Source of the DNA: Microbispora bryophytorum
GTDB lineage: Bacteria; Actinomycetota; Actinomycetes; Streptosporangiales; Streptosporangiaceae
Direction of reading: 5' to 3'
DNA: 64,000 bases
NCBI RefSeq assembly: GCF_006874465.1
Contig: NZ_VIRL01000013.1
Location: 62,001-126,000, forward strand
Under the pieces are notes generated by a model. It did no database searches. It was not told the origin of the DNA and worked only from the letters and a program-made list of their open reading frames with translations. This document shows, piece after piece, positions 52,628-56,399 of the stretch. Numbering within the stretch: the first letter of the stretch is position 1; each line of letters starts with the position of its first letter. The translations under genes were made by a program, and so were the position numbers.

Positions 52628-52722
52628 GGTCAATGGCTCGGAGTCGCTTCAGACTGTCCGAGTTGTTCCGATTTGTGTCTGTCTGGGGTAACGTGACGGC
52701 AATCCCCGGCTAGGTAGGTGAC

Positions 52723-52959
52723 ATGGACAGGTTCGTACACGTGATGCCGCTCGACGACGTGATCGGCCACGAGGGCAGCCCGGAGTGTGTCTGCGGCCCG
52801 GGCGGCCAGCCCGTCACCGCCGCCGACCTCGGCGAGCCGGTCCCGCACACGGAGAGCGCGACCGTAGCGCTCGGCTGGTCCCACCCCGCCGTCGGCGTGA
52901 TCTACCAGCACCACGCGCTCAGCCCCTGCCACGAATGGGAAGCCATTCCCGAGCCCTGA
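52723..52959 (+). CDS. Small hypothetical protein (78 aa)
   Basis: The protein begins MDRFVHVMPLDDVIGHEGSPEC and has few charged runs, three cysteines and five histidines (CVCGPGG, YQHHALSPCHEW), so a metal site is possible. The ATG has an excellent AGGTAGGTGAC upstream. A hairpin terminator overlaps its stop codon, which argues that it is a real monocistronic gene. It is divergent from GH31. The family is not recognised. Confidence 0.72.
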   Translation: MDRFVHVMPLDDVIGHEGSPECVCGPGGQPVTAADLGEPVPHTESATVALGWSHPAVGVIYQHHALSPCHEWEAIPEP

Positions 52960-52967
52960 GGGCTTTT
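52952..52967 (+). terminator. Intrinsic terminator of the 78-aa gene
   Basis: AGCCC-TGA-GGGCT followed by TTTAAT. The triloop is the stop codon itself. The stem is short, but the T-run makes it a classical intrinsic terminator. Confidence 0.7.
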
Positions 52968-53576
52968 AATAGCCGCCAATAGCCGCCATTTCAATCAACA
53001 CTCCGTAATCGACCGACAGCGTTCAGTAACGTCCCCGCCATGCCTGGTATTGCGCACGAGATGCCGATCGAGCTCATCCGCAACCGGCCGGAGACCGCGC
53101 TGGAGCTGCTGCGCTGCGTGAAGAGGATCGAGCTGCCGCCCTTCGCCGCCGCGCGCGTGGAGTCGGCCGACAGCACCCAGCCCTCGCCGATCGAGTTCCG
53201 CGCCGACTCGGTGGTGGTCGTCCGGGACGAGACCGGAACCGCGGTGATGGCCGTGATCGTGGAGGCCAGCAGGGCCGGGACGCCGGGAAGCGGTTCAGCT
53301 GGCCGGTTTATGTCACGACGTTGAGGTCACAGCACAAGTGCGACACCGCACTGCTGGTCATCTGCCCGGATCGCTCGACGGCACGATGGTGCGAGAGGAC
53401 GATCCACCTGGGCCCGGGCGGCGCCATCACCCCGCTGGCGATCGACCCCGGCCGCATACCGCTGATCACCGACCCCGACCAGGCCCGCGCCAGCCCGGAG
53501 CTCGCGGTGCTCTCGGCCGTGGCGCATCCGGCGGAGGCCGACGACGAGCAGGACGGTCAAGCGTCTGGAGGAGATG

Positions 53577-53720
53577 TTGACTTCCTCCCCTCCCTGAAGG
53601 GAGGGGATTCCAACCCTCACGGGTTGGGGTTCCTGCTTCACAGCCGGCCGCCCGTCCGAGAGGACTCTCGTTGAGGTCTTACACCAGCTCCACAGGCGTT
53701 TTACCTCTCCGCCAGCCCGG
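53577..53720 (-). ncRNA. Predicted omega RNA (right-end RNA) of the tnpB element
   Basis: In known IS200/IS605 elements the guide RNA covers the tnpB 3' end and right end and runs into flanking DNA as guide. Here the region holds two compact hairpins (53610-53627 and 53587-53606) before the element end at 53577; the guide would be read from 53576 downward into the broken host gene. The 5' limit is approximate. Confidence 0.5.
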
Positions 53721-54807
53721 CGGCGAGGATGTTCTTGGCGGCGTTGATGTCCCGGTCATGGGCCACACCGCAGGCGCAGGTCCACGACCGGATGCTCAGC
53801 GGCATGGATTGCTGCAGAGTGCCGCAGGCGGAGCACAGCTTGGAGGAGGGAAACCACCGGTCCACGGCGACCATCTCGCGTCCGTACCAAGCGCACTTGT
53901 ACTCCAGCATCGAGCGCAGTTCCCGCCAGGCCGCGTCCGAGATGGCGCGCGCCAGGGAGCGGTTGCGGACCATGGTGCGGACGGTCAGGTCTTCCACGGC
54001 GATCACTTGGTTCTCGCGAACAAGCCGTGTGGTGACCTTGTGCAGGTGATCCCTGCGCCGGTCGGCGATGCGGGCGTACACCCGCGCTACCTTGATCCGG
54101 GCCTTGGCCCGGTTGTTCGAGCCCTTGGCCTTGCGCGCGAGTGCCCGCTGAGCACGGGCGAGCGTGCGCCGGTCGGCCCGCTCATGCGTCGGATTGGTGA
54201 CCTTCTCCCCCGTGGACAGTGTGACGAGCGCGGTGATACCGGCGTCCACACCCACACGGTTGTCTGCCGGGTCGAGCGGGCGGATCGCCTCCTCCACCAG
54301 GATGGACACGAACCACCGCCCCGCGCTGTCGCGGGATGCGGTCACCGTCGACGGCTGCGCACCCTCGGGCAGGGGGCGCGACCAGCGGATGTTCAGCGGC
54401 GCGTTCATCTTCGCCAGCGTCAACTGGCCGTCCCGCCAGCGGAACGCGCTGCGCGTGTACTCGGCCGACGCCCGCGACTTCTTCCGGGACTTGAAGGTGG
54501 GGTACTTGGCCCGTTTGGCGAAAAAGTTCGCGAACCCGGCCTGCAAGTGCCGCAGGGCCTGCTGCAACGGCACGCTGGACACCTCACCCAGGAACGCCAG
54601 CTCCGGCGTCTTCTTCCACGCGGTGAGCATCGCGGAGGTCTCCACATAGGAGACGCGGCGGCCCTGTTGGGTGTAGGCGCGGGTCCGCTCTTGCAGGGCC
54701 TTGTTGTAGATGTAGCGGACGCAGCCGAACGTCCGGGCAAGCTCATCAGCCTGCTCGGGGGTCGGGTAGAAGCGGTACTTGTAGGCCCGCTTCACGATCC
54801 GCGCCAT
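53701..54807 (-). CDS. tnpB: TnpB RNA-guided endonuclease
   Basis: This 368-residue TnpB is the Cas12 ancestor type of nuclease, which uses an omega RNA from the element's right end. The RuvC residues are present: D188 (VGVDAGI), E272 (IAVEDLTV) and the Asp of HDRDINAAKN near 351-353. The zinc finger has CSACG and CACG. The N-terminal KRAYKYRFYPTPEQ and YNKALQER are typical. Length is close to the usual 370-400 and no frameshift is seen, so it is probably active. The start ATG at 54807 is the family start. Confidence 0.95.
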   Translation of the reverse strand: MARIVKRAYKYRFYPTPEQADELARTFGCVRYIYNKALQERTRAYTQQGRRVSYVETSAMLTAWKKTPELAFLGEVSSVPLQQALRHLQAGFANFFAKRAKYPTFKSRKKSRASAEYTRSAFRWRDGQLTLAKMNAPLNIRWSRPLPEGAQPSTVTASRDSAGRWFVSILVEEAIRPLDPADNRVGVDAGITALVTLSTGEKVTNPTHERADRRTLARAQRALARKAKGSNNRAKARIKVARVYARIADRRRDHLHKVTTRLVRENQVIAVEDLTVRTMVRNRSLARAISDAAWRELRSMLEYKCAWYGREMVAVDRWFPSSKLCSACGTLQQSMPLSIRSWTCACGVAHDRDINAAKNILAAGLAER

Positions 54808-55254
54808 GCCTCACATTTACCGCATGATCAGTTGAGCATCGTGTGTGCGGTCGAGACGCCGGTTCGCCTTGCGGCGAATCGGCTACCCCCTGCCCTGCTC
54901 CGCAGGGGTCCGATTCCTTCCCCCGCCTGAAGGCGGGGGTCTCCTCGGAGGTTTTGATGACTACCATTCAGGACTTCGACTACCTCGGCGAGAAGTACTT
55001 CTCCCACTGGCTGGCCAAATGCGAGGTGAGAGGTGAGGCGAAAGGCGAGATTAAGTCGATCTTCTCTGTGCTGGACGCCCGGGGCCTGGAGATCTCCGAC
55101 GACGCCCGCGAGCGCATCTGCCGGTGCGACGACCCGGACCAGCTGGACGCCTGGGTCCGCAGGGCCGCCGTCATCACCTCGGTCGACGAGCTGTTCGCCG
55201 AATAGTGCGCTGCCGGTGAGCGCACGATAACGGCGGCCCGGCCGGTGTGCCGGG

Positions 55255-55292
55255 GCGGGCCGCCCGGGGGATGCATCCCCCGGGCGGCCCGC
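55255..55292. terminator. Perfect 38-bp palindrome between converging genes
   Basis: Every base from 55255 to 55273 pairs with 55292 to 55274; the centre is ATGCAT. It lies 50 bp past the broken gene and 16 bp before the GH53 stop (minus strand), so it can terminate both directions. Confidence 0.85.
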
Positions 55293-55307
55293 TCGATGGT
55301 CAGTCCG

Positions 55308-56399
55308 TCACGGGGTCCACCGGACGTTCGGGTTGATGTGGCCGGTCCAGTTGAAGACGGCCATGTTGTCCCAGCCGTCGCCGGTGCCGTTGATGTTCGC
55401 CGGGTCCCAGCCGTTGCCGGGCACCGCATACCAGGTCGGCTCCCAGTAGAAGACGCCGATGGCGCCCGCGTTGCGGGCGGTGTTCTGCACCGCCGTGAAC
55501 TCCGCCCCCTGCCCCTGCCAGGTGAGGCCGTACCCCGAGCATCCCGACGTCACCGAGTTGCCCTCCCAGTCCGCGTTGTCGGAGGTGAACGGGTAGGCCG
55601 TCTCGGCGATGACGACCGGCTTGCCGTAGCGGGACCGCACGTCCGAGATCACGTTGTACAGGTTGGACAGCGTGCCGTGCCACATGCAGTAGTACGACAG
55701 GCCGGTGATGTCCCAGGGCACGCCCTTGGCCCTGATGCCGTCGTAGAACCAGCGGGCGTGGGCGTCACTGTCCGCGTCCGCGGTGTGGATGATCACCTGC
55801 GTGCCGTAGTTGCACGCCTTGGTCGCGTTGTAGCCGGCCTTGAGCAGCAGGCTCAGGTTCGTGAAGTCGTTGTTGACGACCTTGCCGTCGTTCCACAGCA
55901 TGCCGACGTTGATCTCGTTGCCGATCTGCACGCTGTCCGGTGTCGTGCCCTGCGCCTTGAGGCTGGAGCACACGTCGTAGGTGTAGTCGTAGACGTCGGT
56001 CTGCAACTGGCCGATCCCGTGGCTCGCCCAGGCGGCGGGCTTGTACTGCTTGCCGGGGTCCGCCCAGGTGTCCGAGTAGTGGAAGTCGACGAGCAGCTTC
56101 AGCCCCTTGGCCTTGACCGTCCTGGCGTACTGCAGGACCTTGGCCTTGTTGTTGTAGCCGCTGACGGGGTTGTTCCAGATACGCAGCCGGACGTAGTTGA
56201 CGCCGACGCCCTTGAGGATGTCCAGCGGGTCCCTCTGGGCGCCGCTCGCGTCGTAGTACCTCGCGCCCAGGTCGAGGGAGCGCTGCACGGAGGAGACGTC
56301 GGCTCCGAGCATGGTCAGTGGGGTGGCGGCGTGCGCCGGTTGCGCGGCGGGGAGCACCGCGGCGGCGCACAGGACGAGTGCCGCCAGGACTCTGTTCAT
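55308..56399 (-). CDS. Secreted GH53 endo-beta-1,4-galactanase A
   Basis: This 363-residue enzyme has a Sec signal (VLAALVLCAAAVLPAAQPAHAA). GH53 features are GADVSSVQRSL, YVRLRIWNNP, LLVDFHYSDTWADPGKQ, acid/base E162 (QIGNEINVG) and nucleophile E266 (VIAETAYPF). It cuts beta-1,4-galactan in pectin side chains. The ATG at 56399 has GGAGG upstream. It is the last gene after GH42 and a second GH53 in the same direction, all probably one operon. Confidence 0.94.
   Translation of the reverse strand: MNRVLAALVLCAAAVLPAAQPAHAATPLTMLGADVSSVQRSLDLGARYYDASGAQRDPLDILKGVGVNYVRLRIWNNPVSGYNNKAKVLQYARTVKAKGLKLLVDFHYSDTWADPGKQYKPAAWASHGIGQLQTDVYDYTYDVCSSLKAQGTTPDSVQIGNEINVGMLWNDGKVVNNDFTNLSLLLKAGYNATKACNYGTQVIIHTADADSDAHARWFYDGIRAKGVPWDITGLSYYCMWHGTLSNLYNVISDVRSRYGKPVVIAETAYPFTSDNADWEGNSVTSGCSGYGLTWQGQGAEFTAVQNTARNAGAIGVFYWEPTWYAVPGNGWDPANINGTGDGWDNMAVFNWTGHINPNVRWTP

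Follow-up and report, generated by a model that had tools for sequence, protein, structure and literature searches.

The target motifs of IS200/IS605 elements are usually regarded as arbitrary short sequences. Here we examine an element of this family in Microbispora bryophytorum, within a stretch of 64,000 nucleotides (nt) of contig NZ_VIRL01000013.1 (positions 62,001 to 126,000), called the window below and numbered from its first base. The motif at its left end is TCAT, the complement of ATGA, which is a start codon often overlapping a TGA stop; that relation, and the potential of the ends to keep stop and start, were missed in the first-pass annotation of this DNA, which had recognized the insertion itself. 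Judging from sequence comparison, we consider it distinctly probable that the element belongs to an IS200/IS605 lineage that resides at gene starts and stop/start overlaps in a manner neutral to translation.

The TnpB protein of ISDra2 from Deinococcus is reportedly RNA-guided, with a target-adjacent motif (TAM) equal to the left target site, and by that rule the TnpB in the window would be alike; the TTGAT motif of ISDra2 differs in not being complementary to a start of the ATGA or GTGA kind. In IS608 of Helicobacter pylori (PMC5934647), the cleavage sites are TTAC on the left and TCAA on the right, the guides AAAG and GAAT lie at the feet of hairpins, and insertion is 3' of a tetranucleotide. 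The right pair of the window element, TCAA with GAAT, is identical to that of IS608, and its left guide is also at a hairpin foot. Unlike IS608, the lineage of the window has TCAT or TCAC as left site instead of TTAC and a left guide that is mostly GAxA or GAxG instead of AAAG, the window element has no tnpA, and its left end contains an outward-directed Shine-Dalgarno (SD) sequence. A third relative is the IStron CdISt1 of Clostridioides difficile, of IS605 type, which keeps the damage to its host gene small (PMC3984707). CdISt1 uses RNA splicing for this, whereas the window lineage lands at the stop/start junction and would re-make both signals. The parts of the window element are:

53577 to 54956, minus strand: the whole element, tnpA-less and of IS200/IS605 type (IS1341-like), delimited by other copies and by homologues of the split gene.
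54957 to 54960, minus strand: left cleavage site and predicted TAM, TCAT; on the plus strand ATGA, with the first codon of the right host fragment (sequence and profile calls).
54947 to 54951, plus strand: GGAGG from the element's left end, 5 nt before the ATG at 54957 (sequence; retained across left ends).
54940 to 54943, minus strand: left guide, GAGA, at the foot of the left hairpin (sequence; co-variation with the motif).
54920 to 54939, minus strand: left-end subterminal hairpin (sequence).
53587 to 53606, minus strand: right-end subterminal hairpin (sequence).
53607 to 53610, minus strand: right guide, GAAT, the same as in IS608 (sequence; PMC5934647).
53577 to 53580, minus strand: right cleavage site TCAA; on the host strand TTGA, whose TGA is able to replace the TGA of an ATGA overlap (sequence).

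The window sequence has tnpB open on the minus strand of the element and no tnpA within it. The junctions read GGAGGAGATG/TTGACTTCC and GGAGGTTTTG/ATGACTACC, the slash marking the boundary, as in the first-pass annotation, and its statement that cutting out 53577-54956 restores the host sequence is borne out. Related genomes have the same junction DNA free of the insertion, with nothing gained or lost: among the same-genus homologues, the empty site is ctggaggagatg/ATGACCACC at locus L187 and gagatg/GTGACCACC at L186, L188, L189, L190, L194, L195 and L196, where GTG replaces ATG. That the ends were fixed to 1 bp by the window alone is not correct, because the element begins with CA and the flank past the right end also begins with CA, so that three placements yield the identical empty site; the other copies do favor the placement originally given, in that 66 of 98 sites with both ends called are free of the ambiguity and the motif-free alignments described below show the same TCAT flank and TCAA end. 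The rejoined KRLEEM-MTTIQDFDY is in one frame locally, but a single open frame for the host gene is rejected, since its upstream part contains a frame change and is missing about 40 codons that are present in intact homologues. Because of these two defects, the host gene is taken as decayed. The element has subterminal hairpins, no target duplication, and a position 3' of a short fixed motif. It is a non-autonomous tnpB element of the IS200/IS605 family, whose insertion is 3' of TCAT, with the host gene on the other strand; as an IS200/IS605 event the insertion is ordinary, and the original finding is confirmed in substance.

A second full-length copy in the same genome (L002) is 84% identical in DNA and 86% in protein. 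Relatives at E <= 1e-100 occur in 47 of 198 genomes searched, its own included; loci were taken for 30 of the matches listed there, and a later search likewise gave loci for 30. Of 302 relatives in named genomes, 80 were retrieved. Alignments that made no use of motifs gave TCAT as left flank and TCAA as right end in most copies whose ends could be extended. Calling left ends by the hairpin missed many copies and was dropped in favor of a profile that does not contain the motif. Copies scoring below 11.5 were discarded, except for five admitted by eye (L072, L078, L105, L107 and L122). This gave 81 copies with TCAT, or 76 distinct sites once duplicates sharing a 20-bp flank were removed, and five scored copies without it (L025, L041, L048, L082 and L091). 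In the later set, L163 lacks a left end and L173 has neither TCAT nor TCAC. The TCAT or TCAC closest before the profile anchor was taken as the left boundary, and a TCAA (in the first set, one after a hairpin) as the right end, so the TCAA count over the final sites is by construction, although the motif-free alignments show the same ends. The final set has 104 sites, 87 with TCAT and 17 with TCAC, falling into 101 clusters by blastn of the downstream flank. Not counted are L179 and L183, which have other motifs, L245, whose ends are not settled, and L215, L216, L217 and L219 on plasmids of Stanieria, Marinobacter, Escherichia and Thioalkalivibrio; at L217, an antisense gene starts at a TCAT, though no left end was identified there.

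The first-pass annotation had proposed TCAT or GTCAT as the motif. It is TCAT, because the base before it varies: over the 104 sites it is T in 36, G in 34, C in 30 and A in 4, and GTCAT is rejected. The first base of the element is C in 101 of the 104. A sister tnpB clade, represented in the same genome and in relatives, has TCAC as its left motif; the complement, GTGA, is a GTG start overlapping TGA. At the fourth position of the left guide, 73 of 87 TCAT elements have A and 13 of 17 TCAC elements have G, with 14 and 4 misfits, respectively. Motif and guide thus change together in their last base, as fits base pairing of the IS608 type. The search pattern fixes the first two guide bases, and the readings in 5 of the 17 TCAC elements (L148, L150, L152, L155 and L159) may be off register by eye.

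The placement of insertions was scored by reading the host strand outward from each site with a codon-usage score, both for an ATG opening a coding frame and for a coding frame upstream. As control, all remaining ATGA in the flanks of these sites were scored alike, on both strands and at least 150 bases from the element. Scores were obtained for 81 of the 87 TCAT sites and all 17 TCAC sites, the others having no right end or insufficient flank. A coding start without in-frame coding upstream is found at 58 of 81 TCAT sites, compared to 103 of 1202 control positions; under a coarser scheme applied before, the counts were 48 of the 70 sites (out of 76) that could be scored versus 180 of 1125. 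At 33 of the 81, an upstream gene ends on the TGA of the ATGA (control 34/1202). Noncoding sequence lies on both sides of 13 (control 221/1202), and just 4 are in the interior of a gene on either strand (control 837/1202). The TCAC clade has 8 start-like sites of 17 (control 15/231) and 6 with the TGA overlap (control 5/231).

These distributions bear on plain survivorship, an alternative that we regard as unlikely, in which interior insertions are purged, ATGA is common at starts in high-GC genomes, and CTCC is a transposase recognition sequence that falls before an ATG incidentally. The near absence of interior sites is what purging predicts, and at 69 of 76 sites the CTCC anchor of the profile is separated by 5-8 nt from the cleavage position, as a recognition sequence might be. 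However, when interior sites are left out, starts and overlaps are still over-used (64/77 versus 112/365) and plain noncoding ATGA is under-used (13/77 versus 221/365). Since the excess persists among the non-interior sites, purging of intragenic insertions is insufficient as sole cause.

The left ends themselves speak to the same alternative. A match of at least 5 nt to the SD consensus at positions -17 to -4 is present in 76 of 97 distinct left ends, compared to 6.7% of shuffled sequences. The next interval (-33 to -20) has such matches in 21 of 97, and intervals farther out in 0 to 4 of 97. The SD is retained in different registers, namely GGAGGT, GGAGG, AAGGAG, AAGGA and AGGAGG, and therefore selection on SD function fits better than one fixed protein-binding sequence of the kind that survivorship supposes. 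Also contrary to survivorship, among 12 relatives with TTGAT or TTAT flanks, of which 3 could not be called, none of the 9 called reaches a match of even 4 nt. Four Rhodococcus loci (L124, L127, L129 and L132) with a TTGAT left flank and a left end without SD form a natural contrast group. In four cyanobacterial loci (L218, L240, L242 and L243), CACCCCC comes shortly after TCATCTA, so that GGGGGTG precedes ATG on the host strand; pairing of this sequence with the anti-SD, through a G-U pair, is conceivable. In the window, the target GGAGG-AGATG-ATGACT became GGAGG-TTTTG-ATGACT.

The resemblance of left end to target raises a different possibility, active targeting, in which the transposase reads beyond TCAT (for example, TCAT and then an anti-SD CTCC) and is drawn to ribosome-binding sites, left end and target being bound alike. 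The left ends do resemble TCAT-N5-7-CTCC, the complement of a ribosome-binding site plus start. Native SD matches of at least 4 nt precede 40 of 58 used starts and 50 of 103 control starts, and at least 5 nt precede 20 of 58 and 22 of 103. But this excess is modest, 18 of the 58 used starts are without a 4-nt match, and neither flank of the target motif has a predominant base. We think targeting of this sort quite unlikely, and a preference for native ribosome-binding sites was set aside as the main cause given the size of the excess.

The ends, the motif, the placement statistics and the retained SD make up a statistical and anatomical pattern of the lineage that is out of the ordinary. In our preferred reading of it, namely insertion neutral to translation, the target is TCAT (TCAC in the sister clade), whose complement ATGA (GTGA) is a start often overlapping a TGA stop. 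After insertion the host strand would read xy-TTGA, the element, and then GGAGG-N5-ATGA. The right end is TTGA on that strand, so by sequence logic, a gene ending in xyA-TGA becomes one ending in xyT-TGA with frame and stop unchanged; the upstream gene would in this way regain its TGA, in frame, from the right end. The left end would supply an SD ahead of the intact start codon of the downstream gene. In the window, the target was probably the internal start of the RpnS-like portion in an Rpn-like gene, described below. The adjoining genes may be unharmed by such an insertion, their translation presumably being preserved, and we infer that selection upholds the pattern, acting against harmful insertions and in favor of ends that spare the host. 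We would give an even chance to a further proposal, that these elements are parasites of cistron junctions that enter operons, and even internal starts such as that of the Rpn-like antitoxin part here, with the adjoining protein kept; host transcription running antisense through tnpB and its guide RNA may then hold the nuclease at a low level.

Several points weigh against insertion being neutral to translation. With a threshold of 4 nt, which 28% of shuffles reach, SD matches are found in 87 of 97 left ends at -17 to -4 but also in 76 of 97 at -33 to -20, and because the score is nearly as high in that next interval, only the 5-nt threshold discriminates; the 4-nt matches at -33 to -20 are mostly the AAGG of the hairpin. 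Ten of the 97 left ends have a match shorter than 4 nt, and by eye, the left ends of L244 (in a phage) and L184 (Bifidobacterium) have no clear SD. The codon-usage score behind the gene-start calls was trained on long open reading frames flanking the first set of sites. In the TCAC clade the pattern is less clean, with 3 of 17 sites interior (control 172/231), and the numbers are small. The window site scored as start-like, yet by homology it is internal to a gene. The native SDs, being somewhat commoner at used starts, leave room for target preference. Finally, a promoter for the downstream gene may have to act across 1.4 kb of antisense tnpB.

Deposited annotation provides a comparison that does not go through the codon-usage score. 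Of 23 annotated regions inspected by eye, 16 have a left end of this type at TCAT, TCAC or TCAA, and one of these (L185) is unannotated; the plasmid gene tables are incomplete. At 10 of the 15 annotated loci, the listed start of an antisense gene coincides exactly with the left end. Six of them are on Streptomyces plasmids (L174, L175, L176, L178, L180 and L181), three on plasmids of Trichormus, Nostoc and Tolypothrix (L218, L242 and L243), and one in Thermobifida phage P1312 (L244). Since L175, L178 and L180 share one junction and L176 and L181 are one site in two strains, the ten loci are seven distinct sites. At 7 of the 15 (L174, L175, L178, L180, L182, L218 and L243), the TGA within the right-end TCAA is annotated as the stop of the antisense gene that comes before. 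Four loci (L177, L182, L184 and L241) have no antisense gene listed at the left end, and at L240 the annotated start falls within the element in a different frame. The shared junction is rfbA/element/rfbB in three Streptomyces plasmids (L175, L178 and L180) whose left-end sequences differ, and L180 has TCAA, giving a TTG start, in place of TCAT. The phage-borne copy (L244, 27438-32541) has 82% TnpB identity and stands at an annotated start codon.

Among the titles and abstract openings listed in literature searches on the subject, none reports IS200/IS605 insertion at start codons or stop/start overlaps, or a replacement ribosome-binding site, but subscription papers are thinly covered in that material and this is not proof of novelty. 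If the preferred reading is right, neutrality to translation would be another route to transposon tolerance, beside the RNA splicing of IStrons, and would help explain the persistence of TnpB elements within operons. The predicted TAMs of many TnpBs would be TCAT and TCAC, set by a single base of the left guide, and the guides of such TnpBs are predicted to fall on ribosome-binding sites and gene ends.

The host gene in the window is in two parts:

53040 to 53576, plus strand: left part, Rpn-like, frame-changed and lacking a segment (homologue comparison).
54957 to 55205, plus strand: right part, 82 amino acids, corresponding to the RpnS-like C-terminal part and now behind the element's GGAGG (open reading frame and homologues).

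In Rpn genes, a small C-terminal protein made from an internal start blocks the full-length nuclease (PMC10327210). The host gene resembles these genes-within-genes in its C-terminal repeats of four residues and in a possible SD-preceded internal start. It differs in being recognized by no family model, with no match over the cut-off in Pfam, NCBIfam or PADLOC; the likeness is in the repeats and the possible start, and a sequence relation to Rpn is not established. Eleven aligned homologues have 286 to 308 amino acids, with D56, E75-x-Q77 and K84 invariant. Their C-terminal part has repeats such as GEAR, GEAK and REEG in varying number. An LE..M/V motif is present at 23 of 31 homologous loci, and the DNA there is GGAGG-N5-A/GTG in 19 of the 23, which is suggestive only, because it is partly dictated by the codons for L-E-E. 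An AlphaFold model has a mean predicted local distance difference test score of 80. Its Foldseek matches are weak, none reaching E 0.001, and several of the first-ranked ones are what we take to be PD-(D/E)XK nucleases. The only sequence matches in the PDB, to chains of botulinum type (E 1.5 or worse), were dismissed as chance. The element is probably at the internal start of an antitoxin-like part, whose 82-residue frame stays open behind the SD of the element. Tandem extra copies of the RpnS-like C-terminal part occur at L188 (G006:C3), G003:C5 and G026:C2, which recalls the separate rpnS genes of E. coli.

The protein and RNA features of the element are:

53701 to 54807, minus strand: tnpB, 368 amino acids, with GVDAGIT, AVEDL, DRDINAAKN and two CxxC-type motifs (open reading frame, Pfam/NCBIfam, motif positions).
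53557 to 53576, minus strand: predicted TnpB guide, CATCTCCTCCAGACGCTTGA (family rule).
53586 to 53732, minus strand: possible omega-RNA region, with a weak Rfam resemblance to sot0042 below the gathering score (Rfam).

TnpB matches OrfB_IS605, Cas12f1-like_TNB and HTH_OrfB_IS605 of Pfam above cut-off. The NCBIfam model guided_TnpB scores 374.3 bits (cut-off 100), and IS200_TnpB scores 387.2 bits, under that model's own cut-off of 425. The RuvC motifs and zinc-finger cysteines, which we presume to have their usual catalytic roles, are at residues 186, 270, 325, 344 and 351. The state of these parts bears on whether the copy in the window is dead, inserted into a gene that was already broken and without function whatever the lineage does elsewhere. 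The decay of the host gene is consistent with that, as is the scarcity of transposase: the whole genome has only three partial Y1 transposase pieces, on contigs C115 and C71, near other, distant tnpB copies. Against it, tnpB is open with its family motifs, both ends and both guides are intact, and the C-terminal 82-residue frame is open, so we consider a dead insertion somewhat unlikely. Fragments of tnpB are also found at contig ends (G000:C44:5-412, G000:C137:5-412 and G000:C11:252169-252420), as if repeats had broken the assembly.

By the rule of the family, the TAM of a TnpB is the left target site of its element, and TCAT is therefore the predicted TAM here. The first-pass annotation took the first flanking bases to the right of 53576 as the guide. 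This is not borne out: read in the direction of tnpB, the guide would be the complement of the bases ending at 53576 and running leftwards, about 53557-53576. The predicted 20-nt guide is matched in all 20 bases at 8 places, spread over 7 of the 29 homologue loci (L186, L187, L188 twice, L189, L190, L195 and L196). Beside the match is TCAT in L187 only and TCAC at the other 7 places. If this TnpB does need TCAT, then most of the homologues matching the guide would escape cutting. TldR, a repressor exapted from TnpB, is likewise a TnpB-type protein guided to the 5' region of a gene (PMC13418256), but the TnpB in the window differs in keeping its RuvC motifs and residing inside a mobile element. 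The five Rfam matches with E up to 1 in 52700-55600 include no group I intron, the hallmark of an IStron. A resemblance to HgcC at 53567-53657 is, like that to sot0042, below the gathering score.
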